This document shows, in pieces, positions 2,767 through 27,833 of a stretch of DNA of 38,430 nucleotides. The notes under the pieces are model-generated. The model had not been told where the DNA came from, searched no databases, and saw only the letters and a program-made list of their open reading frames with translations. The stretch's first letter is position 1, and each line of letters starts with the position of its first letter. Source of the DNA: Clostridiales bacterium (GTDB taxonomy: Bacteria; Bacillota; Clostridia; Christensenellales; CAG-138); NCBI GenBank assembly GCA_918244965.1, contig CAKJYC010000017.1, forward strand, positions 1 through 38,430, written 5' to 3'. Position numbers and translations under genes: made by a program.

Positions 2767-3552
2767 TTACTTCCTCCCGACCAGAAGCGCGGAGCCCTTC
2801 AGCTCCATCCATACCGCCTCGCCTTTGCGGATGAACGTCCCGTCGTCCGTGGGGATCAGGCGAACGTCCGCATAGCCCATGCCCTTCAGCTGTTCGACAA
2901 ACGACTGCATGTCGCCGTATCTGTGCTTCGAGAAGATGTCGTGGATCGCGAACGTGCCGCCCTTTTTCAGCGTGCGCAGCGTTTCCAGAAGAAACGCCTG
3001 CTTATCGCCGGGGATGTTGTGATACACATAGTTGCTCGTGACCGCGTCGAAGGTCCCGTCCGCAAGGTCGAGCCGCGTCGCGTCGCCGCGCCGGAACGCG
3101 ACGTTTTTGACGCCCTCCGCCCATGCGTTGTTCTCGCACAGCGGCTTGTTGTAGGAGGCGTACTCCTTGCCCCAGCGGTCGATCCCGATGAACGACGCGT
3201 TCGGATTGCGCTTTGCGCAGGCGATCGTGAGCGCCCCGCTGCCGCAGCCGACGTCCAATCCCGTCCCGCCGTCCGGCAGCTTCACATGGTCCGCAATGCC
3301 CTCGATGATGCTTTTTGACATCTGCCGCCTGCCGTTGTACGAAAACGCACGGTACAGCAGAAGCATCCAGACGGTCACGCAAAGCGCGATCAGCGTCAGC
3401 GCGAGGAACACGACAAACAGCACGGTTTTCGCCGTGCCGGACACGAGTCCCGTGAGTCCCAGCACGATCCAAAGGATCAGAAACAGCGCGGTCGCCGCAG
3501 CCCCGGTTAGGATCATGCCCTTCGGCATCCAGTTCTTATAATCCGGTTTCAT
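2767..3552 (-). CDS. Membrane-anchored class I SAM-dependent methyltransferase
   Basis: 261 residues. Two hydrophobic helices (about residues 12-34 and 42-68) anchor the protein, followed by a cytoplasmic Rossmann methyltransferase domain with motif I LDVGCGSG, an acidic residue in GIDRWGKEY, RRGDATRLDL and the post-motif LKKGGTF. The stop codon of the upstream MBL-fold gene overlaps this ATG by four bases (ATGA), which shows translational coupling. The membrane anchor suggests a lipid-like substrate or one handed over from a membrane protein, and the operon encodes two such membrane proteins. Similar anchored methyltransferases are common in Clostridia and uncharacterised. Confidence 0.85.
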   Translation of the reverse strand: MKPDYKNWMPKGMILTGAAATALFLILWIVLGLTGLVSGTAKTVLFVVFLALTLIALCVTVWMLLLYRAFSYNGRRQMSKSIIEGIADHVKLPDGGTGLDVGCGSGALTIACAKRNPNASFIGIDRWGKEYASYNKPLCENNAWAEGVKNVAFRRGDATRLDLADGTFDAVTSNYVYHNIPGDKQAFLLETLRTLKKGGTFAIHDIFSKHRYGDMQSFVEQLKGMGYADVRLIPTDDGTFIRKGEAVWMELKGSALLVGRK

Positions 3553-4415
3553 TTTGTCCCTACCTTTCCGAGCGGGCGCGTCCTTGCGCCCTCCTCCGTG
3601 TCGTCGTCCTCCACATAGCCGTCATACGGCGCGGAAGGATCGACGTATTTCTTCGCAAACGGCTTGCACAGCTCGTCCCGATGCAGAAACGCAAAATCAA
3701 GATCGTCCGTCCAGCCGGTGTGTCCGGTGATGATCTTCAGCGGCCTGTTCCTTGCGTGGAGGTTCTTTTCCAGCGCTTCTAGCGATCGGATCGCAAGCTT
3801 ATTGTCCTCGGCGAGCGTCGAAAGGAAGCTGTAGCCGCCGTCCGCGCCGAACCACATCGTGTCGCCGGTGAACAGGTATTCGTCGTCGACGAGGTACACC
3901 ATGTGTCCCCAGGTGTGCCCCGGCACAAGCAGACATTCGATTTTGATCCCGTCGATGTGCAGGATCTGCCCGTCCTTCAGCAGCACGCGTTCGTTGTTCA
4001 TCTTCACCGGCGGCAGCTTATACAGCTTGTGCATGACCCGCCGCCGCACTTCGCCGGTCAGGTACCGGTTTTCGATCTCGCCGATATAGACCGTCGCGTT
4101 CCTGAACAGCTGCTCGCTGTCAAGTTCGAGCGCGCCGACGTGGTCGGTGTCCTGATGCGTGATAAAGATGTGTTTGATCGACGCCGGGTCGATGTCGAGC
4201 CAGTCCATCTTCTCCTTGAGCCGCGCATAGTTGTAGCCCGCGTCGATCATGACCGTCATGCCGTTCTTTGTGTAAAAAAAGATGTTTGCGACCCACTCGC
4301 GCACGCACGCGACGCGTTCGTCGATCCGTCCCGTGTTCAGCGGCTTGAAGATCGCCTTGCCGCGAAACAGCAGGCTCATGGACTTTTTCTGATGCTCCGA
4401 ATCCTTCCTTGCCAT
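3549..4415 (-). CDS. MBL-fold metallo-hydrolase
   Basis: A 288-residue metallo-beta-lactamase-fold hydrolase. The metal-binding motif is HQDTDH at residues 87-92, so Asp replaces the usual second His of HxHxDH. The other ligands are in place: H167 in VPGHTWGH, D185 in FTGDT, and a His in ITGHTGW. The HxDxDH variant is found in several Firmicutes subfamilies and does not by itself mean loss of metal. The C-terminal 30 residues are acidic and look disordered. The enzyme is probably cytosolic, since no signal peptide is present. Possible reactions include thioester, lactone or phosphoester hydrolysis; the sequence does not choose between them. It overlaps the following methyltransferase gene by four bases. 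Confidence 0.87.
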   Translation of the reverse strand: MARKDSEHQKKSMSLLFRGKAIFKPLNTGRIDERVACVREWVANIFFYTKNGMTVMIDAGYNYARLKEKMDWLDIDPASIKHIFITHQDTDHVGALELDSEQLFRNATVYIGEIENRYLTGEVRRRVMHKLYKLPPVKMNNERVLLKDGQILHIDGIKIECLLVPGHTWGHMVYLVDDEYLFTGDTMWFGADGGYSFLSTLAEDNKLAIRSLEALEKNLHARNRPLKIITGHTGWTDDLDFAFLHRDELCKPFAKKYVDPSAPYDGYVEDDDTEEGARTRPLGKVGTK

Positions 4416-4424
4416 AACGCCATC

Positions 4425-4931
4425 CTATCGAATGATCATGATCAGCAGCCCCACCAGCGCTGCGGGGATCAGGCCGAATACGATGCCCGGAAACAGCATG
4501 CCCTTCAAATGGAACCACTTCTGGTGATACGCCTTGTCCATGTGCTCGGTACCCTCCAGGCGGAACCGCCTGAGGTTTGCAAACAGCACCCAGTCCAGAA
4601 AGAACGTATCGTACGCGCCGATCCACACCATCAGTCCGAACGTCAGAAGGAAGCCCTCCCAAAACGTTTTCGCCCCCGCAAGCAGTGCGCAGACGAACAG
4701 GATCCCCGTAAAGATCACGATGCCGAGGCCCTTTGTGAAGAACACGCGCTTCGATTTGATCGAGACGTCGACCCGCTCGTGCGTCTTGAAGTATTCCTCC
4801 CGAATGTCCGGCGGATAGTTGTGGATCGCCTCCGGGGTGTATATTTTGTCCCCGCGATACGCCGAAAAGATGATCACCGTGAAGATCGCCGCAAACGCGG
4901 CCGCTTCCAGAAGGATCACCCACCAGGTCAT
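4425..4931 (-). CDS. Four-helix integral membrane protein, paralogue of the protein at 164-655
   Basis: 168 residues with hydrophobic segments near residues 4-24, 68-88, 92-116 and 146-166. The start at 4931 (MTWWVILLE) leaves an 11-base gap after the HMA gene; the longer open frame upstream overlaps that gene in another frame and is not used. The FLDW motif at 111-114 in helix 3, the YHQKWFHLKG segment and the last helix correspond to CLDW, YHAFGFNRKG and the last helix of the protein at 164-655. The family is not one I can name. Two diverged copies in one operon could form a heteromeric complex, perhaps a carrier or anchor for the methyltransferases; this is inference. Confidence 0.78.
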   Translation of the reverse strand: MTWWVILLEAAAFAAIFTVIIFSAYRGDKIYTPEAIHNYPPDIREEYFKTHERVDVSIKSKRVFFTKGLGIVIFTGILFVCALLAGAKTFWEGFLLTFGLMVWIGAYDTFFLDWVLFANLRRFRLEGTEHMDKAYHQKWFHLKGMLFPGIVFGLIPAALVGLLIMIIR

Positions 4932-4942
4932 GCCGCGTCCCC

Positions 4943-5194
4943 TTATCTCCCGAACAGACCGCGCTTTGCGTACGGCTCGACCGAGACCGAAACGAACGTG
5001 TAGCCGGTGGCTTCGATCGTTTGCTTCAGCTTTTCGCCGTCGATCTCCCGCTCCGAAAGGAACGTCGCCTCGCCGTGCTTTCTCGACGCGCTCACCTTTT
5101 TCGCATCGGGGAACGCCCTGCGGATCGCATCCGCAACATGCGCCTCGCACATGCCGCACATCATGCCGTCGATTTTCACCGTTGTCTTTACCAT
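4943..5194 (-). CDS. Small HMA-domain (heavy-metal-associated) protein
   Basis: An 83-residue single HMA domain with the metal-binding motif GMMCGMC at residues 10-16, the ferredoxin-like beta-alpha-beta-beta-alpha-beta pattern, and a short basic tail (KRGLFGR). HMA domains of this type bind Cu(I), Zn(II) or similar soft metals and act as cytosolic chaperones such as CopZ. A GGGAGGG ribosome site precedes the ATG. It is not in the csoR-copA operon next door but in the methyltransferase operon, between a methyltransferase and a membrane protein. That suggests the operon product or substrate involves a thiophilic metal. The alternative, that this is a copper chaperone captured by the operon, cannot be excluded. 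Confidence 0.85.
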   Translation of the reverse strand: MVKTTVKIDGMMCGMCEAHVADAIRRAFPDAKKVSASRKHGEATFLSEREIDGEKLKQTIEATGYTFVSVSVEPYAKRGLFGR

Positions 5195-5215: not shown

Positions 5216-5896
5216 TCACTTGATGCAGCAGAACACGCCCTCGGCCCGGACCGGAGAAACGCGCACCTCTTGATACAATGCCTGCAGCCGCTTTTCGAGC
5301 GTTTCCTTCGTCTCAAACGGCGGTGTGAAAAAGCCCTTCGGCTCGTACATGTGCCTGACGAACCAATCGGTCCGTTTGTATTCCCCCGCAATATAAAAGC
5401 AGCCGCAGAAAGTCCCGCCCTTTTTCAGCACGCGCCATGTCTCGGAAAACGCGGCGTCCTTGTCGGGAAACGCGTGAAAACCGTTCAGCGAAAGCACGAC
5501 GTCAAAGCTCCCGTCTTTGAACGGCAGCGCGCCGACGTCGCCCTGCACGAATGATACGTTCTTCACCGCAAGCGCCTCCGCGCGCCGTTCGGCGTTTTGC
5601 ATCATCTCCGCGGAATAGTCAAGGCAGGTGATCTGCGCTTCCGGCAAGCCCTGATAGACGGGAACGGTCAGAACGCCGGTCCCGACCGGAACCTCCAGAA
5701 GCGTTCCCGAAAAATCGTCCGGGATCGGCGCAAGCGCGTCGTTGATCCACCTTGCCGCGCGCTCCGCGTTCAGTCCCCAAACCAGACTGTCCATCAGCCT
5801 GCCGATCGGCGTGGACCGCGTGATGATCCCGTCGTACAGGCTTGCAAATCCGCCGAGCTTTTGATAGGACGCTTTGATCTGTTCGTGCCTGTTCAT
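5216..5896 (-). CDS. Class I SAM-dependent methyltransferase (UbiE-like)
   Basis: 226 residues, soluble. Motif I reads LLEVPVGTGVLT, in which Val-Pro replaces the common xGxG start; this variant occurs in a Firmicutes subgroup of Methyltransf_11 proteins and is unlikely to abolish SAM binding. Further motifs are CLDYSAEM, GDVGALPF and LKKGGTF. The start at 5896 has a strong GAGGAGG ribosome site, and the stop codon of the DUF3793 gene overlaps it (ATGA), so the upstream in-frame extension is not used. It is the second gene of the operon. The substrate is unknown. Confidence 0.88.
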   Translation of the reverse strand: MNRHEQIKASYQKLGGFASLYDGIITRSTPIGRLMDSLVWGLNAERAARWINDALAPIPDDFSGTLLEVPVGTGVLTVPVYQGLPEAQITCLDYSAEMMQNAERRAEALAVKNVSFVQGDVGALPFKDGSFDVVLSLNGFHAFPDKDAAFSETWRVLKKGGTFCGCFYIAGEYKRTDWFVRHMYEPKGFFTPPFETKETLEKRLQALYQEVRVSPVRAEGVFCCIK

Positions 5897-6468
5897 CGAT
5901 TCCTCCTCGATTCCGTATGCTCCGCCACGGTCAGCCGTTCGATCGGCGTGCCGTTTTGAAAGCGCTGCCGGTAGAGCGCGCTGCATTTCCGAAGCAGGCG
6001 AAATGTCTTCTGCGCCGCCGCTTCGTCCCCGTAGACCTTCCAGCAGCCGACGCATTTTACGTCGCAGTCCCGATGCTCGATGAAGCCTTTCACGTCCTCC
6101 GGCGGATAGCCTAAAAACAGCCCGATCTCATGCGGGAAATCTTCGTTGGCTCGGATCCGCTTTGCAAGGCAGCAAAGGCAGCGCGCAGGCGAGCCGCCGC
6201 AGTAGCCGCAGTTGGACAGGATCGCGTTTGCGGCGGCGTCGGACAGATCGCGGGAAAGCCTTTGGGGGCGGTACAGATACAAAAGCGCCTTGTTGTTTTC
6301 AAAGGTCAGCGGAATGACCCGCAGCCCCTTCCCGGAAAATCGCCGGTTCCATTCCCGCAGCGATGTGCGCATCGCCTCCGCGCTCTCATACGTACTGCGA
6401 AACAGGCTTCCCGTTTTGATCCCCGCCAGCGTCGGCGCGCCGTGCAGGATGACCGCTTCTTCCGACAT
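5893..6468 (-). CDS. DUF3793 family protein
   Basis: 191 residues. The FPHEIGLFLGYPPEDVKGFIEH block followed by KCVGCWKVYGDE and a Phe/Cys-rich helix is the signature of DUF3793 (PF12672), a family known almost only from Clostridia and without an experimentally assigned activity. A CGYCGG...CLCC cluster near residues 92-104 could bind a metal or iron-sulfur cluster, but this is only suggested by spacing. It is the first gene of the ten-gene operon; AAAGGAG lies 6 bases before the ATG at 6468, and one of the two operator palindromes lies immediately upstream of that ribosome site. Confidence 0.82.
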   Translation of the reverse strand: MSEEAVILHGAPTLAGIKTGSLFRSTYESAEAMRTSLREWNRRFSGKGLRVIPLTFENNKALLYLYRPQRLSRDLSDAAANAILSNCGYCGGSPARCLCCLAKRIRANEDFPHEIGLFLGYPPEDVKGFIEHRDCDVKCVGCWKVYGDEAAAQKTFRLLRKCSALYRQRFQNGTPIERLTVAEHTESRRNR

Positions 6469-6483
6469 TCGTTTCTCCTTTCA

Positions 6484-6499
6484 GTTAGTCCACGCTAAC
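6484..6499. promoter_or_regulatory. Second GTTAG-N6-CTAAC palindrome, next to the first ribosome site
   Basis: GTTAG-TCCACG-CTAAC is the same 5-6-5 palindrome as the site at 6551-6568. It lies just upstream of the AAAGGAG of the first gene of the operon. Two copies of the same spaced palindrome in one leader point to a dimeric repressor, perhaps looping or roadblocking. The protein is not encoded beside it. Confidence 0.6.
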
Positions 6500-6509
6500 C
6501 AGTTCCCCG

Positions 6510-6536
6510 AAAAAAGATGCTTTTCTGCAAAAGCAT
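6510..6536 (-). terminator. Leader terminator (attenuator) of the methyltransferase operon
   Basis: On the minus strand a perfect 8-bp stem, ATGCTTTT / AAAAGCAT, with a 4-base loop is followed by CTTTTTT. It lies between the promoter and the first start codon, so a large share of transcripts may stop here unless something intervenes. No obvious antiterminator or leader peptide is seen. Confidence 0.6.
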
Positions 6537-6550
6537 GTGTATTCTCCATC

Positions 6551-6568
6551 GGTTAGCGCTTGCTAACC
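6551..6568. promoter_or_regulatory. Operator palindrome at the transcription start of the methyltransferase operon
   Basis: GGTTAGCGCTTGCTAACC is a palindrome with GGTTAG/CTAACC arms around CGCTTG. It starts about 7 bases downstream of the -10 box, a classic place for repressor binding. TetR-type dimers use sites of this shape. The GGTTAG half-site also resembles DtxR/IdeR boxes, but the spacing is 5 bases longer than in those. Confidence 0.65.
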
Positions 6569-6574
6569 GCTATT

Positions 6575-6602
6575 ATCTTATCACTTTTTTCGCGGTTGTC
6601 AA
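6575..6602 (-). promoter_or_regulatory. Promoter of the ten-gene methyltransferase operon
   Basis: Minus-strand -35 TTGACA (6597-6602), 16-base spacer, -10 TAAGAT (6575-6580). The match is close to consensus for a housekeeping sigma factor. It drives transcription towards the gene starting at 6468; the untranslated leader would be about 100 bases. Confidence 0.7.
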
Positions 6603-6772: not shown

Positions 6773-6982
6773 TTACTCCACGCCGAGGACCTTGTACTCC
6801 TGTGCTTCGACGGCGGCGGTCAGGACCTCGTCCGCAACAGGCGCGTTCAGGGTAACGACGGCCGTGCCGAGCTTGTGGTCCGCGACCGCGCTTTCCACGC
6901 CGGGGATCGCTTCCAGTGTCTTTTTGACGCGCGCCTCGCAGTGCGGGCACATCATGCCTTCTACCTTCAGAGTCTTTGTCAT
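6773..6982 (-). CDS. Possible separate CopZ-like chaperone from an internal start in copA
   Basis: An in-frame ATG at 6982 encodes MTKTLKVEGMMC and 57 more residues, a complete 69-residue HMA domain with the CPHC copper site. Immediately upstream, at 6991-6999, lies AAAAGGAGG, 8 bases from the ATG, as good as any ribosome site in the window. Either this is a former copZ gene whose upstream stop codon was lost, fusing it to copA, or both products are made. In Escherichia coli a free CopA(Z) chaperone is made from copA by programmed frameshifting, so the dual-product principle has a precedent. Whether internal initiation happens here is inference. Confidence 0.5.
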   Translation of the reverse strand: MTKTLKVEGMMCPHCEARVKKTLEAIPGVESAVADHKLGTAVVTLNAPVADEVLTAAVEAQEYKVLGVE

Positions 6983-9310
6983 GGTCGGTTCCTCCTTTTG
7001 GATTTCTTTTGCTATCACAGATTCCAGCGCATCTGCGGGAATCGGTTTTACGGATTTGTCGTGTGCGCTGTCGTGCGGTCGAACCAGATTCAGCCGCAGC
7101 GCGTTCATGCAGACGAAAAAGCTTGAAAGCGCCATTGCCGCAGCGCCGTACATCGGCTTCATTTCGATGCCGTAGAGCCCGATGGCAAGCGGGATGCAGA
7201 TCACGTTATAGAAGAACGCCCAGAAGAGATTCTGGTGAATGTTCCGGATCGTCCTGCGGCTTAATCGGATCGCCGCCGTCACGTCCGAAAGACGGCTTTT
7301 CATCACCACGATGTCCGCCGCGTCGATCGCAACATCCGTGCCCGCGCCGATCGCAATGCCGTTGTCCGCCACCGTGAGCGCCGGCGCGTCGTTGATGCCG
7401 TCACCGACCATCGCGACCTTGCCGAGCGACTTGAGTTTTGTGATGACGTCGGCCTTTTGGTCCGGCAGTACGCCCGCCACGACCTGATCCACGCCCGCCT
7501 GCTTTGCGATCGCCTTTGCCGTGCGCTCGTTGTCGCCGGTCAGAAGAACGGTCCGCACGCCCATGCCGTGCAGTTCTTTGATTGCCTGCGCCGAATCCGC
7601 CTTGATCGGGTCCGCCACGGCGATCATGCCGATCAGCCTGCCGTCGTACGCGAACAGCAGCAGCGTTTTGCCCTGTTCGGCAAGCGCGTTCGCCTGCTCC
7701 TCCACGGCCCTGTCGACAAGGCCCATCGTGCGCAGATACCGGAGACTGCCGCCCACAAGCGCTTTGCCGTTCAGCATTGCGCGCAAGCCGTTGCCCGGCA
7801 GCGCTTCAAATTCTGTGACCTCAAAGATCTGCAGTCCCTCCGCGGCGGCGGCGACCGCCTTGGAAAGCGGATGCTCGCTGTTCTTCTCCAAAGACGCGGC
7901 AAGCCGCAAAAGCTCCTCCCGTTCCGTGCCGAACGGCAGAATGTCGGTGACCTTGGGTTCGCCCTCGGTGACGGTGCCGGTCTTGTCCAGTGCGACGATC
8001 TGTGTCCGTCCCGCGCCCTCCAGCGCCGCCGCGGTCTTGTACAGCACGCCGGTTTTCGCACCGACGCCGCTGCCGACCATGATCGCAACCGGCGTCGCAA
8101 GGCCGAGCGCACACGGGCAGCTGATGACGAGCACGGAGATCCCGCGCGCGATCGCGAACGAGAACGGACGTCCGGCGATCAGCCAGCCGATCAGCGTACA
8201 AAGCGCGATCCCGATCACCGCCGGCACGAACACGCCGGAGACCCTGTCCGCAATGCGGGCAAGCGGCGCCTTCGTCGCCGCCGCGTCGGAAACGGTGCGG
8301 ATGATCTGCGCCAGCGTCGTGTCCTCGCCGACGCGCGTCGCGCGGCACACAATGTACCCGTGCTGGTTCATCGTCGCTGCGGAAACCGTGTCGCCCTCGC
8401 CCTTGTCGACCGGGATGCTCTCGCCGGTCAGCGCGGATTCGTTGACCGCGGCCGACCCCTTCAGAATGACGCCGTCCACCGGGATCTGCTCGCCGGGGCG
8501 AACAGCAAAGACGTCGCCCTTCTGCACCTGTTCGATGCCGACCTCCGTTTCAACGCCGTCTTTCAGCAGCACCGCAGTCTTCGGCGCGAGCTTCATCAGC
8601 CCCTTCAGCGCGTCCGTCGTGCGGCCCTTGGACCTGGCTTCGAGCATCTTTCCGACCGTGATCAGCGTTGGGATCATTGCAGCCGATTCAAAGTACAGGT
8701 TCATGCCGTGTTTCATCACGACGTCCGTCTGACCCTCGCCCTGCGCAAGGATCATCAGAAACAGCGACGCCAGCGAGTAGCCGAACGAAGCCGTCGAGCC
8801 CAGCGCAACGAGCGTGTCCATATTCGGCGCGCCGCGCATCAGTGAGGAAAAGCCGGAGGTGAAGAACTTGCCGTTGATGACCATCACGGCCACGGCGAGC
8901 AGCAGCTCAAAGAGCCCTAAAAATACATGGTTGTCAAACGCCTTCGGCGCAGGCCAGCCCCACATCATGTGCCCCATCGAAAAGTACATGAGAACGAGCA
9001 GGATCGGCACGGAGAACAGCAGCCGACGCACGAGCTTCGGCGTTTCGCGGTCCTTCAGCGCTTCCGCGTCCGCCCATGAAGGCGCGCTGCCGGACGCCGT
9101 CCTGTCCTCCCCTCCCTTGACCGATGCGCCGTATCCGGCTTTTTCGACGGCTCGGATGACCGCTTCCGGCGAGGCGGTCCCCTCGACGCCCATGGAATTG
9201 GTCAACAGGCTGACCGAACAGGCGGTCACGCCTTCTACGCCGGACACCGCCTTTTCGACCCGCGCGGAGCATGCCGCGCAGCTCATGCCGGTCACATTGT
9301 ATTGCTTCAT
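6773..9310 (-). CDS. copA: Copper-exporting P1B-type ATPase with a fused C-terminal CopZ-like domain
   Basis: 845 residues; pumps Cu(I) out of the cytoplasm using ATP. Domain order: N-terminal HMA with CAAC at residues 11-14; membrane helices with the CPC metal site (398-400) in SCPCALG; phosphorylation Asp442 in DKTGT; the SEHP loop at 478-481 of the nucleotide-binding domain; GDGINDAP near 636-643; last helices with YN and MxxSS motifs; then a second HMA domain (777-845) with CPHC at 788-791. A C-terminal HMA is unusual, because CopA enzymes normally carry theirs at the N-terminus and CopZ is a separate gene. The linker encodes an in-frame AAAAGGAGG followed 8 bases later by ATG (Met777), so the same mRNA can probably also make a free CopZ-like chaperone. 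The start follows csoR by 13 bases, and CsoR should control expression in response to copper. Confidence 0.95.
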   Translation of the reverse strand: MKQYNVTGMSCAACSARVEKAVSGVEGVTACSVSLLTNSMGVEGTASPEAVIRAVEKAGYGASVKGGEDRTASGSAPSWADAEALKDRETPKLVRRLLFSVPILLVLMYFSMGHMMWGWPAPKAFDNHVFLGLFELLLAVAVMVINGKFFTSGFSSLMRGAPNMDTLVALGSTASFGYSLASLFLMILAQGEGQTDVVMKHGMNLYFESAAMIPTLITVGKMLEARSKGRTTDALKGLMKLAPKTAVLLKDGVETEVGIEQVQKGDVFAVRPGEQIPVDGVILKGSAAVNESALTGESIPVDKGEGDTVSAATMNQHGYIVCRATRVGEDTTLAQIIRTVSDAAATKAPLARIADRVSGVFVPAVIGIALCTLIGWLIAGRPFSFAIARGISVLVISCPCALGLATPVAIMVGSGVGAKTGVLYKTAAALEGAGRTQIVALDKTGTVTEGEPKVTDILPFGTEREELLRLAASLEKNSEHPLSKAVAAAAEGLQIFEVTEFEALPGNGLRAMLNGKALVGGSLRYLRTMGLVDRAVEEQANALAEQGKTLLLFAYDGRLIGMIAVADPIKADSAQAIKELHGMGVRTVLLTGDNERTAKAIAKQAGVDQVVAGVLPDQKADVITKLKSLGKVAMVGDGINDAPALTVADNGIAIGAGTDVAIDAADIVVMKSRLSDVTAAIRLSRRTIRNIHQNLFWAFFYNVICIPLAIGLYGIEMKPMYGAAAMALSSFFVCMNALRLNLVRPHDSAHDKSVKPIPADALESVIAKEIQKEEPTMTKTLKVEGMMCPHCEARVKKTLEAIPGVESAVADHKLGTAVVTLNAPVADEVLTAAVEAQEYKVLGVE
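6991..6999 (-). promoter_or_regulatory. Internal Shine-Dalgarno inside copA
   Basis: AAAAGGAGG on the minus strand encodes Gln-Lys-Glu-Glu in the copA frame and sits 8 bases before Met777. Its strength and spacing match a true translation start. Confidence 0.55.
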
Positions 9311-9323
9311 GTCCGACCTCCGC

Positions 9324-9635
9324 TCACTTCATCAGCTTCTTCAGCGTTTCCATCAGCTCGTCGACCGCGTCCTCGCGTCCGTTTCGGATGTCCTCGGTCA
9401 CGCAGGTATGCAAATGATTTGCAAGCAGTGTTCTCGAAAAGCTGTTCAGCGCCGAATTGACCGCCGACGCCTGCACCAGAATGTCCGGGCAGTAGGTGTC
9501 CTCCTCCAGCATGCGCTCTAACCCGCGCACCTGTCCCTCGATCCGCTTCAGCCGGTTCATCAGATCGCGTTTCTCCTGTTCGCTGCGGACCTTTTTCCGC
9601 CCCTGCGTTTCGTTTGTTTGGCAACAGTTTTCCAT
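9324..9635 (-). CDS. csoR: CsoR-family copper-sensing transcriptional repressor
   Basis: 103 residues, all-helical CsoR/RcnR family (PF02583). The Cu(I) ligand set Cys-His-Cys is present: C49 in DTYCPDIL, H74 and C78 in NHLHTCV, with the typical H-x3-C spacing. An extra Cys pair (CC at 4-5) lies in the N-terminal tail. The first helix carries RLKRIEGQVRGLERM, the DNA-contacting signature. Cu(I) binding releases the DNA and turns on copA. The ATG at 9635 follows AAAGGGG. Two G/C-rich operators in its own promoter show autoregulation, and csoR and copA (13-base gap) form one operon. Confidence 0.93.
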   Translation of the reverse strand: MENCCQTNETQGRKKVRSEQEKRDLMNRLKRIEGQVRGLERMLEEDTYCPDILVQASAVNSALNSFSRTLLANHLHTCVTEDIRNGREDAVDELMETLKKLMK

Positions 9636-9824: not shown

Positions 9825-10085
9825 TCAGTCCCTTTTCCGTGCGGCCTCGGCGATGTCGGGCCAGCGTTTGAGAATGTACTGCACCGCGTTCCGGCTATGC
9901 GGAACCATGCAGTCCGTACAGTTCTTGATCCCCGCTTCCGTATAGGTGAAATTGCCGCCGCATTTGTCGCCGAGCAGGTACAGCGGACAGTAGCAGAACA
10001 GGCAGTTGAAATCCTCCGGATGCGCGGTCTTGTGGCACGGAAAATACCTGCAGTCGGTGTTGTTGATGAACGAATCGCTGTTCAT
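9825..10085 (-). CDS. Cysteine-rich small-domain protein at the end of the cobalamin operon
   Basis: 86 residues with at least nine Cys, matching the 'cysteine-rich small domain' (PF04071): CRYFPCH near the start, FNCLFCYCPLY, KCGGNF, KNCTDC and a final PH. The arrangement suggests binding of a metal or iron-sulfur cluster. Genes with this domain are often found in anaerobic cobalamin gene clusters, but no activity has been established that I know of. The ATG at 10085 overlaps the cbiC stop codon by four bases (ATGA); an upstream in-frame extension to 10139 lies inside cbiC and is not used. Possible roles are cobalt delivery or a redox step of cobalt-corrin intermediates; both are guesses. 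Confidence 0.8.
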   Translation of the reverse strand: MNSDSFINNTDCRYFPCHKTAHPEDFNCLFCYCPLYLLGDKCGGNFTYTEAGIKNCTDCMVPHSRNAVQYILKRWPDIAEAARKRD

Positions 10086-10726
10086 TGCTTTGCTCCTCTC
10101 GTTTCGTCGATCCGGTACAGCAGCGCGTTGACGATGCACGCGGCGACGTTGCTGCCGCCCTTTCGTCCGCGCGCGACGATGTGCGGCACATCGGTTTCCA
10201 GGATCAGCTCCTTCGACGCGACGACGTTCACAAACCCCACCGGCACGCCGATGATCAGCCTGGGCCGGTAGCCCGCGTCGATGTGCTCGCGGAGCCGGAT
10301 CAGCGCCGTCGGCGCGTTGCCGATCGCATAGATCACATTCTCCCCCATCCGCACCGCCTTGTCCATGCTGACGCGCGCGCGGGTCACGCCCTGCGCCTTC
10401 GCCTCCTCGGCCACGTCCCCGTCCGCCATAAAGCAGACCGCGCGGCCGCCGAGCTTCTCCAGCGTACGCTTATTGATCCCCGCAAGTGCCATCTGCGTAT
10501 CGGTCACGACCGTCGCGCCGCCTTTCAGAGCGTCGAGCGCAAGCCGCACGGCGCCCGGCGAAAAGATCAGGCTGTCGACGTAATCGAAATCCGCGGTGGT
10601 ATGGATCACGCGCTTGATGATCGGCGCCTGTTCGGGATCGAGGACCCGATTTCCCAATTCCTCCGTGATGATGCGAAAGCTCTCGCGCTCGATCTCCATC
10701 GGCGCGATCTTCAGGATCTCCGTCAT
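10082..10726 (-). CDS. cbiC: Cobalt-precorrin-8 methylmutase
   Basis: 214 residues, CbiC/CobH family (PF02570). The enzyme moves the C-11 methyl group to C-12, turning cobalt-precorrin-8 into cobyrinic acid. The catalytic His corresponds to H42 in [10 protein letters not shown]. Further family blocks are [28 protein letters not shown] and RGRKGGSN. Length is normal for the family. It overlaps cbiP upstream and the Cys-rich gene downstream by four bases each. Confidence 0.95.
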
Positions 10727-12222
10727 ACGCCCTCCCTCAAAATGCGGTATACCGCGTCCATGTCCATGTGGTTCCGGATCGTTTCGGCCAGCAGATCGTA
10801 CTGACGCTGCTTGTGCGCTTCGCCGGACACCCTGCCGAGCTGCGCCGGATCGACGCCCTTCCGTTCGGCAAGCGCGCGCACGAGCGCTCCCGCGACCGCG
10901 TCGCCGTCCAGCACGCCGTGTACATACGTTCCGCAGACGTTCCCGTCGATCGCGCCGTCCGTTTTCGACGTCCCCGTGACCGCATCCGTAACGGCTGCGA
11001 CCGGCGCGTCCGACGCCGTTTCGCCCATATGGATCTCATAGCCCTCAAACGGCAGTTCCGACAGCGCCGAGAACGTGCCGCAAAGCGTGCCGAACGCGCC
11101 CGTTACGCGGGTGCGCGTCTTTTGTCCGGCAAACGTCGTATCGACCGGCAAAAGTCCCATGCCGCGCAAGGCGCCGCCGTGCTCCACGCCGTGCGGATCG
11201 CGGATCGTCCGTCCGAGCATCTGGAAGCCCCCGCAGATGCCGAGCACCGCCCCGCCGCCGTCCGCAAACCGCAGGACCTTCGCTTCGAGCCCGCTTTGCC
11301 GCAGCCATAAAAGGTCCGCCATCGTATTTTTCGTGCCGGGCAGGATCACAAGGTCCGGCTCGCCGAATTCGCGCGGCGAGGACACATAGCGCACGGACAC
11401 GCCGTCGATCGCCTCCAGCGTACGGAAATCGGTGAAATTGCTGATCCGCGGCAGCCGCATGACCGCGATATCGACCAGCGCGGCGGGCCTGTTTTCAAGC
11501 CGTTCGGACAGCGAATCCTCGTCGTCGATATCCAGATGCACATACGGCACGACGCCGATGACCGGGATTCCCAGAAGGTCCTCAAGCTGTTTGATGCCGG
11601 GCGTCAGAATGCTTTCGTCGCCGCGGAATTTGTTGATGACGACGCCCTTCACGAGCGCGCGCTCGTCCGGATCCAGAAGCGCGACCGTGCCGTACAGCTG
11701 TGCGAACACGCCGCCGCGGTCGATGTCGCCGACCAGCAGCACCGGCGCTTTCGCTGCCTTCGCCATTCCCATGTTCACGAACACGTCCGCGTCCTTCAGG
11801 TTGATCTCGGCAGGACTGCCCGCGCCTTCGATCACGATCACGTCGTTTTCGGCGGACAGCTTGCCGTACGCCTTCATGACCTCCGGCATCAGCGTTTTCT
11901 TGATCGCAAAATAGTCGCGCGCGCTCATCTGCGCCCACACCTCGCCGTTCACGATGACCTGCGACCCCATGTCGCTCGTGGGCTTTAAGAGGATCGGATT
12001 CATCAGCACCGACGGCTCGACGCCCGCGGCCTCGGCCTGCACGACCTGCGCGCGGCCCATCTCCAGCCCTTCCTTCGTGATGAACGAGTTCAGCGCCATA
12101 TTCTGCGCCTTAAACGGCGCGACCTTATATCCGTCCTGCCGGAATACGCGGCAGAGTCCCGCCGCGATCAGGCTCTTGCCCGCGTTGGACATCGTGCCCT
12201 GAATCATGATCGCGTTTGCCAT
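10723..12222 (-). CDS. cbiP: Cobyric acid synthase (glutamine-hydrolysing)
   Basis: 499 residues. Amidates side chains b, d, e and g of adenosyl-cobyrinic a,c-diamide using ATP and glutamine. N-terminal dethiobiotin-synthetase-like ATPase domain with the modified P-loop GTMSNAGKS (9-17), then [11 protein letters not shown]-terminal class I glutamine amidotransferase domain with nucleophile C330 in [11 protein letters not shown] and catalytic H435 in GTYVHGVLD. Length and order are typical for CobQ/CbiP. Its stop codon overlaps the cbiC start, and it begins directly after the cbiA stop codon. Confidence 0.96.
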
Positions 12223-27570: not shown

Positions 27571-27653
27571 TGCGTACATAGAGCGCTCCGGAACCCGCAG
27601 CATGGTACACAATCAATCCCTCGTGATTTGGAAAACACCTTTTCCGTACCCAA

Positions 27654-27815
27654 CAATCGGCAGGTTTCCCGGCTCGCGGTACAAGATGCTGTCGCCTTCC
27701 CGATCGCTCAGTGGCTGCAAATGCCTGACAGCATCGACCCGCATACGGTGACGAGTTCGCACAGGCGTTTCACCTGTTTCCCTATTATCCGACGCCAAAG
27801 CGCCGGCACCGACTG
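27654..27815 (-). ncRNA. Cobalamin (adenosylcobalamin-type) riboswitch aptamer
   Basis: The minus strand shows the conserved elements in order: closing stem P1 (CAGTCGG at 27809-27815 with CCGATTG at 27654-27660), AATAGGGAA followed by CAGGTGAAACGCCTG, the B12-box core GCCACTG at 27709-27715 followed by the GGGAAGGC element, and the final GCCGGGAAACCTGCC. These match the RF00174 class. When cobalamin is bound, the downstream terminator should form and shut off cbiK and probably the rest of the operon. Confidence 0.93.
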
Positions 27816-27833
27816 CTTTATTCAATTATGGAC

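Follow-up and report, generated by a model that had tools for sequence, protein, structure and literature searches.

Transcription is known to be controlled both by roadblock repression and by intrinsic termination, and the regulatory region described here has its closest counterparts among these and in the DtxR family of metal-dependent repressors. The canonical DtxR box, TTAGGTTAGSCTAACCTAA, is built from GTTAG half-sites arranged as GTTAG-N1-CTAAC in a 19-bp core that is taken by two interleaved dimers. In the related regulator MntR of B. subtilis the metal ligands are Asp8 and Glu99. Classical attenuators, including trp, riboswitches and T-boxes, place a terminator in the leader ahead of the first gene. 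According to the available parts of a review and a study of roadblocks formed by CcpA, CodY and LacI, a repressor bound to DNA past the promoter blocks the elongating polymerase, and Mfd is named as the main factor that frees the stalled enzyme; these parts describe no pairing of an operator with a terminator (PMC4132739, PMC10310618). The position at which such a block acts has been mapped for EcoRI(Gln111), which halts polymerase 14 nt upstream of its site (PMC5499547).

The locus analysed here shares features with each of these systems and departs from each. Its candidate regulator resembles DtxR and IdeR in possessing both Pfam domains and the Met and Cys ligands of the iron type, and the operators share the GTTAG/CTAAC half-site and iron-uptake targets. 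It differs in its length of 124 aa and in lacking the SH3-like third domain, as does MntR, in an operator of the form GTTAG-N6-CTAAC, and in operators that also lie after terminators and within operons. The two-domain size and sequence similarity recall MntR of B. subtilis and E. coli; however, the regulator carries the DtxR-type residues Met9 and Cys99, and its targets include feoAB. As at the CcpA, CodY and LacI sites, we propose that a bound repressor obstructs elongating polymerase, but here the expected polymerase stop coincides with a U-tract, in many cases accompanied by a hairpin, so that release could be intrinsic. A leader terminator ahead of the first gene is shared with the classical attenuators, whereas the proposed effector binds DNA, and since neither a competing fold nor an Rfam element was found in the leader, a classical RNA switch is unlikely.

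Results

Two rare and conserved palindromes flank the leader hairpin of the operon. The window, by which we mean the whole 38,430-nt stretch of DNA that was analysed, contains GTTAG-N6-CTAAC exactly twice, and no match appeared across 100 dinucleotide-preserving shuffles. Box 1 (GTTAGCAAGCGCTAAC; 6552-6567, minus strand) lies at the predicted transcription start and is conserved in the genus; box 2 (GTTAGCGTGGACTAAC; 6484-6499, minus strand), the proposed roadblock operator, lies directly before the ribosome site. Both are exact palindromes and are placed as an earlier note on this DNA had described them. That note made its reading depend on the palindrome being neither frequent at random nor confined to one genome, and on both counts the result favours it. 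The 2.33-Mb genome has 5 exact copies and none of the reversed control pattern, and conservation in relatives is very strong: the box precedes the corresponding genes in members of the genus, of the family and, more broadly, of Clostridia, and it occurs in 92 of 103 genomes of the family. Two one-mismatch matches, one upstream of a lipoprotein-like ORF (C12:25080) and one apparently within a coding region (C68:700), were dismissed as indistinguishable from chance because at that stringency the reversed control gave 21 matches and the box 8.

The box consensus is RGTTAGC-N4-GCTAACY. A half-site separation of 6 bp is common to both window boxes and to the 264 sites of a collection that was gathered by this spacing. 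Conservation across these 264 sites does not extend to the outer TTA/TAA arms known from the canonical DtxR box, and the window boxes have neither the 1-bp separation nor the 19-bp core. The half-site centres are 11 bp apart, about one helical turn, a distance that on general grounds would suit one dimer per box. The earlier observation of a DtxR-like half-site with altered spacing is therefore borne out, and the 6-bp separation with half-sites one turn apart points to a variant site rather than to a different protein family.

The predicted promoter (6575-6602, minus strand) consists of a −35 element TTGACA at 6602-6597, a 16-nt spacer and a −10 element TAAGAT at 6580-6575. It matches the consensus at 10 of 12 positions where 0.1 such sites would be expected, and both hexamer blocks are conserved across 9 genus members. 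As this is the best promoter-like site, box 1 falls at the predicted start, and box 2 begins about 70 bp downstream of it, in the transcribed region, as a roadblock operator should. Between the boxes is a hairpin, ATGCTTTT-GCAG-AAAAGCAT (6517-6536, minus strand), with an 8-bp stem, the loop GCAG and a predicted energy of −6.8 kcal/mol. It is followed by C and then by the U-tract TTTTTT (6510-6515, minus strand), which is read directly from the sequence, conserved in the genus and reflected in a family-wide T-profile. A spacer of 10 nt (6500-6509, minus strand), which measures 9-10 nt in the genus and 8-11 nt in most other modules, separates the U-tract from box 2. The end of box 2 is 15 nt from the ATG of the DUF3793 gene, and between them comes the Shine-Dalgarno sequence AAGGAG (6475-6480, minus strand), of which AGGAG is invariant among the 9 genus members.

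In the 9-member genus alignment the −35 and −10 elements, both boxes, the stem TGCTTT/AAAGCA, the U-tract and AGGAG are invariant, and the loops and box centres vary. The distance between the boxes ranges from 65 to 68 bp, whereas the gap from U-tract to box 2 holds at 9-10 nt. The leader terminator reported earlier, an 8-bp stem plus U-tract between the boxes, is thus present in all 9 genus members as a predicted intrinsic terminator. With 2 G-C pairs the stem falls short of a strong G+C-rich one and the terminator is predicted to be weak. A consensus terminator scan of the window did not flag the leader hairpin because its rule requires at least 3 G-C pairs; the sole match of the scan was the box-1 palindrome on the opposite strand. 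A short A+U-rich stem fits a terminator that works only while polymerase is held.

The operon encodes, all on the minus strand, a DUF3793 protein of 191 aa (gene 1, 5893-6468, with its ATG at 6468; PF12672, E 5.5e-55), a class I methyltransferase (gene 2, 5216-5896), a small heavy-metal-associated (HMA) domain protein (gene 3, 4943-5194; PF00403), a membrane protein with no Pfam match (gene 4, 4425-4931), a metallo-beta-lactamase-fold hydrolase (gene 5, 3549-4415; PF00753), a second class I methyltransferase (gene 6, 2767-3552), a leucine carboxyl methyltransferase-like protein (gene 7, 1927-2763; PF04072), an L-2-amino-thiazoline-4-carboxylic acid hydrolase-like protein (gene 8, 1297-1923; PF14196) and a third class I methyltransferase (gene 9, 663-1340), for which the listed start is TTG and the true start may be internal. 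Homologues of genes 2, 4, 6 and 8 occur directly behind boxes in other genomes: that of gene 2 in L056 behind the same leader, and those of genes 4 (L092, 58% identity), 6 (L120, 57%) and 8 (L153, 59%) behind boxes of their own. The operon thus belongs to the box regulon whatever the gene order. In L056 (1986-2790, genome G061) the DUF3793 gene is cut to its first codons, and the leader with its boxes, hairpin and U-tract stands intact before the methyltransferase gene. A search of open-access papers returned none relevant to DUF3793. Elsewhere in the window are a metal P-type ATPase gene with two HMA stretches, with a CsoR-type metal repressor gene ahead of it, just upstream of the operon (6773-9635, minus strand), genes for the cobalamin-synthesis proteins CbiC and a CobB/CobQ-type amidotransferase (10082-12222), and a Cobalamin riboswitch (27642-27828, minus strand; 97.7 bits).

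A DtxR-family protein is the likely binder of the boxes. The genome-wide search for GTTAG-N6-CTAAC that the earlier note had proposed places the other three exact copies in the feo operon on contig C53: a pair precedes the first feoA, and a single copy separates the second feoA from feoB. There is also a one-mismatch box, a fourth copy, between the −35 and −10 elements of the feo promoter. The feoB box lies inside the operon and, like box 2, in the transcribed region, where a roadblock operator would be expected. The gene divergent from feoA-feoA-feoB encodes the 124-aa protein, with both domains scoring over their cut-offs (PF01325, E 1.9e-9; PF02742, E 4.1e-16); its best NCBIfam match is MntR, below the cut-off of that model, and its end at 124 aa leaves no room for the C-terminal domain that MntR-type members also lack. 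Alignment with IdeR and DtxR assigns Met9, Cys99, Glu102 and His103 to the primary metal site and His78 to the second site, and all five are invariant across 30 homologues. They align with DtxR Met10, Cys102, Glu105, His106 and His79, the ligands of the iron type, and from this set the protein is likely an iron-type DtxR relative with iron as its ligand.

It is the only DtxR-family gene in the genome, and its position beside exact boxes at feo makes this iron-type repressor the likely protein that binds them. A Fur-family protein was looked for in the genome and not found, which speaks against Fur as the binder. The dimeric repressor proposed earlier is supported, and the regulator is indeed not adjacent to the operon in this genome. 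The suggestion of a TetR-type protein finds no support, since the sole DtxR/IdeR-family gene adjoins the operon that carries the other boxes. No relatives of the regulator were found in viral contigs.

The association of box, regulator and target genes extends across relatives, in a survey of genomes that are largely drafts or metagenome-derived. In the genus the box adjoins the regulator gene and the feo genes, and it adjoins the regulator in other genera as well. In G074 the feo genes, the regulator gene and the DUF3793 operon sit together, with the regulator directly beside the DUF3793 gene. The box stands upstream of DUF3793 in most of 80 named loci, which come from Clostridia of the rumen and gut. 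Among 297 genomes of the order, a close homologue of the regulator is present in 63 of 69 with a strict box and in 136 of 228 that are box-negative. The regulon and the leader architecture are well supported by these data. No paper on this box in Clostridia was found among the open-access literature.

A T-tract lies at a fixed distance before boxes that precede ribosome sites. For boxes just before a ribosome site, T makes up 43-77% of the bases at −18 to −10 before the box, compared with about 22% around, and the opposite side of the box has no comparable peak. The profile is centred near −14, which coincides with the EcoRI(Gln111) stop position, a geometry established for E. coli polymerase and an unrelated protein (PMC5499547). 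When similar sequences are removed from the boxes near ribosome sites, 49 of the remaining 80 have a T-tract ending 7-13 nt upstream (feoB, 25 of 26; DUF3793, 18 of 33; others, 6 of 21), in contrast to 15 of 440 control genes (3.4%), and a general feature before ribosome sites is thereby ruled out. The gap from tract to box is 8-11 nt in nearly all cases, the feoB modules included. A strong promoter accompanies none of the 49 boxes with a tract but 12 of the 31 without, which indicates two operator classes, those with tracts and those overlapping promoters, and excludes the tract as part of a promoter.

Spacing and orientation were also surveyed by pattern. A T-tract and box separated by 8-12 nt occur in 81 of the 297 genomes of the order, and with a gap of 22-26 nt in only 23. 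With a stricter pattern, 31 of 391 genomes of the class gave a match, and 1 genome matched the reversed control. Among 53 pattern-found modules from outside the family of the window, 36 have a ribosome site and start downstream when read from T-tract to box, and 4 when read the other way. Hairpins ending at the tract are commoner than in shuffles and average −7.4 kcal/mol compared with −3.5 there (p 4e-7, a value that ignores kinship), and their sequences differ between genes and lineages. Many of the counted modules, such as DUF3793 leaders and feoA-feoB gaps, are homologous, so the p values overstate independence. In distant lineages 42% fall below −5 kcal/mol compared with 27% of control T-runs (p 0.007), a weak excess which suggests that the hairpin may be less important than the U-tract. 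Four modules (L166, L170, L198 and L207) combine U-tract and box with no evident strong hairpin, and in these the U-tract may act alone. In L093 (6483-6518) and L097 (6934-6970) tandem boxes lie about 35 bp apart, and the palindrome of the first serves as the hairpin for the second.

Discussion

The model that we favour, with a probability of roughly 0.6, is one in which DtxR-family operators control the operon at two points and the second acts through a weak terminator. Iron-loaded repressor would occupy the two boxes, blocking initiation from box 1, which overlies the predicted start, and forming a roadblock at box 2. Any polymerase that had escaped would halt there just past the weak hairpin, the 3′ end of its transcript lying in the U-tract. 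The weak hybrid and the nascent hairpin would then favour release, leading to termination before the DUF3793/methyltransferase operon. Under iron shortage the boxes would be vacated and polymerase would pass the weak terminator. A module of the same kind separates feoA from feoB within the feo operon, and many other Clostridia carry it too.

This arrangement could also result from plain two-operator repression by a DtxR-family protein. Box 2 would then be a simple roadblock or auxiliary operator, with the hairpin and U-tract lowering basal expression independently of it as a weak constitutive terminator. Box 1, over the start site, would be enough for repression, and the review describes roadblock repression with Mfd-dependent release for CcpA, CodY and LacI (PMC4132739). 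We regard this explanation as doubtful, for it does not account for the constancy of the 8-11-nt gap across unrelated genes whose hairpins are likewise unrelated, for the drop from 81 to 23 of 297 genomes on altered spacing, or for the orientation bias. Control at the RNA level by a terminator/antiterminator switch, perhaps with the palindromes acting as RNA hairpins or through an RNA-binding protein, gains something from a leader that folds better than shuffles (z −3.8), with box-1 RNA pairing with box-2 RNA around the hairpin, and from leaders such as L093 and L097 in which box 1 itself gives a hairpin. Nevertheless, the best predicted fold leaves the terminator hairpin intact, so that an antiterminator, the second fold of a riboswitch or attenuator, is not seen; the Rfam search of the leader gave no family, and one feo-promoter box lies between −35 and −10 and hence is untranscribed. 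Mismatches are frequent at positions 6 and 11, in the inner part of the box (among them C/A in 33, A/G in 18 and T/G in 16 of 264 sites), which implies conservation of sequence rather than pairing, and covariation of the box arms as RNA was ruled out for the same poor pairing. We consider RNA-level attenuation very improbable. Where the earlier note proposed dual control by a repressor and attenuation, two-point control and the leader terminator stand, and a switch made of RNA alone has no visible second conformation. The data point to a terminator linked to box 2 at the DNA level, which that note did not contain.

The U-tract might have some other role, either as a DNA feature (A-tract bending) or as an S1-type translation enhancer, and so aid repressor binding or ribosome loading. 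Several distant modules do have a T-tract with no clear hairpin, but bending beside a symmetric box would be expected on either side and the other side has no such peak. The tract is rare in control genes with ribosome sites (3.4%), and in the family of the window hairpins abut it; the chance that either role explains the module is slim. There is similarly little prospect that a regulator other than the DtxR-family protein binds the boxes, even though no close homologue passed the cut-off in 6 of 69 box-positive genomes, given a single DtxR-family gene and no Fur found in this genome, boxes beside the regulator gene in many genera, and GTTAG being the half-site of the canonical DtxR box.

Returning to the model of a repressor that gates a weak terminator, the odds seem to us about even that it represents a device widespread in Clostridia in which a DNA-bound metal sensor switches on an intrinsic terminator, with the operator 8-11 bp past the U-tract so that bound repressor would hold polymerase right at the point of transcript release, both in leaders and between operon genes (feoA-feoB), thereby providing iron-dependent termination without an RNA switch. 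The open-access literature yielded no paper describing a repressor-gated intrinsic terminator and no described case of operators set systematically at a fixed distance behind terminators. If the model is correct, repressors that bind DNA can determine at which place an intrinsic terminator acts and whether it acts at all, even inside operons, and 5′-leader operators across Clostridia are open to rereading. The spacing rule makes the question of roadblock termination directly testable. The boxes also outline a probable iron regulon for bacteria of the gut and rumen like this one, whose genome yielded no Fur, and tie the uncharacterised DUF3793 proteins and their associated methyltransferases to iron supply.

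Two further groups of genes lie behind the same box. In L103 (6005), L108 (6006) and L145 (6508) boxes precede proteins that have signal-like N-termini and share the motif YGTMxIPY; this uncharacterised family may be part of the iron regulon. In L120 (8144-8557) and L110 (8140) the box precedes a second, different DtxR-family gene (PF01325, PF02742), in L120 with a strong hairpin and U-tract accompanying the box, and a regulator cascade is possible in these two.
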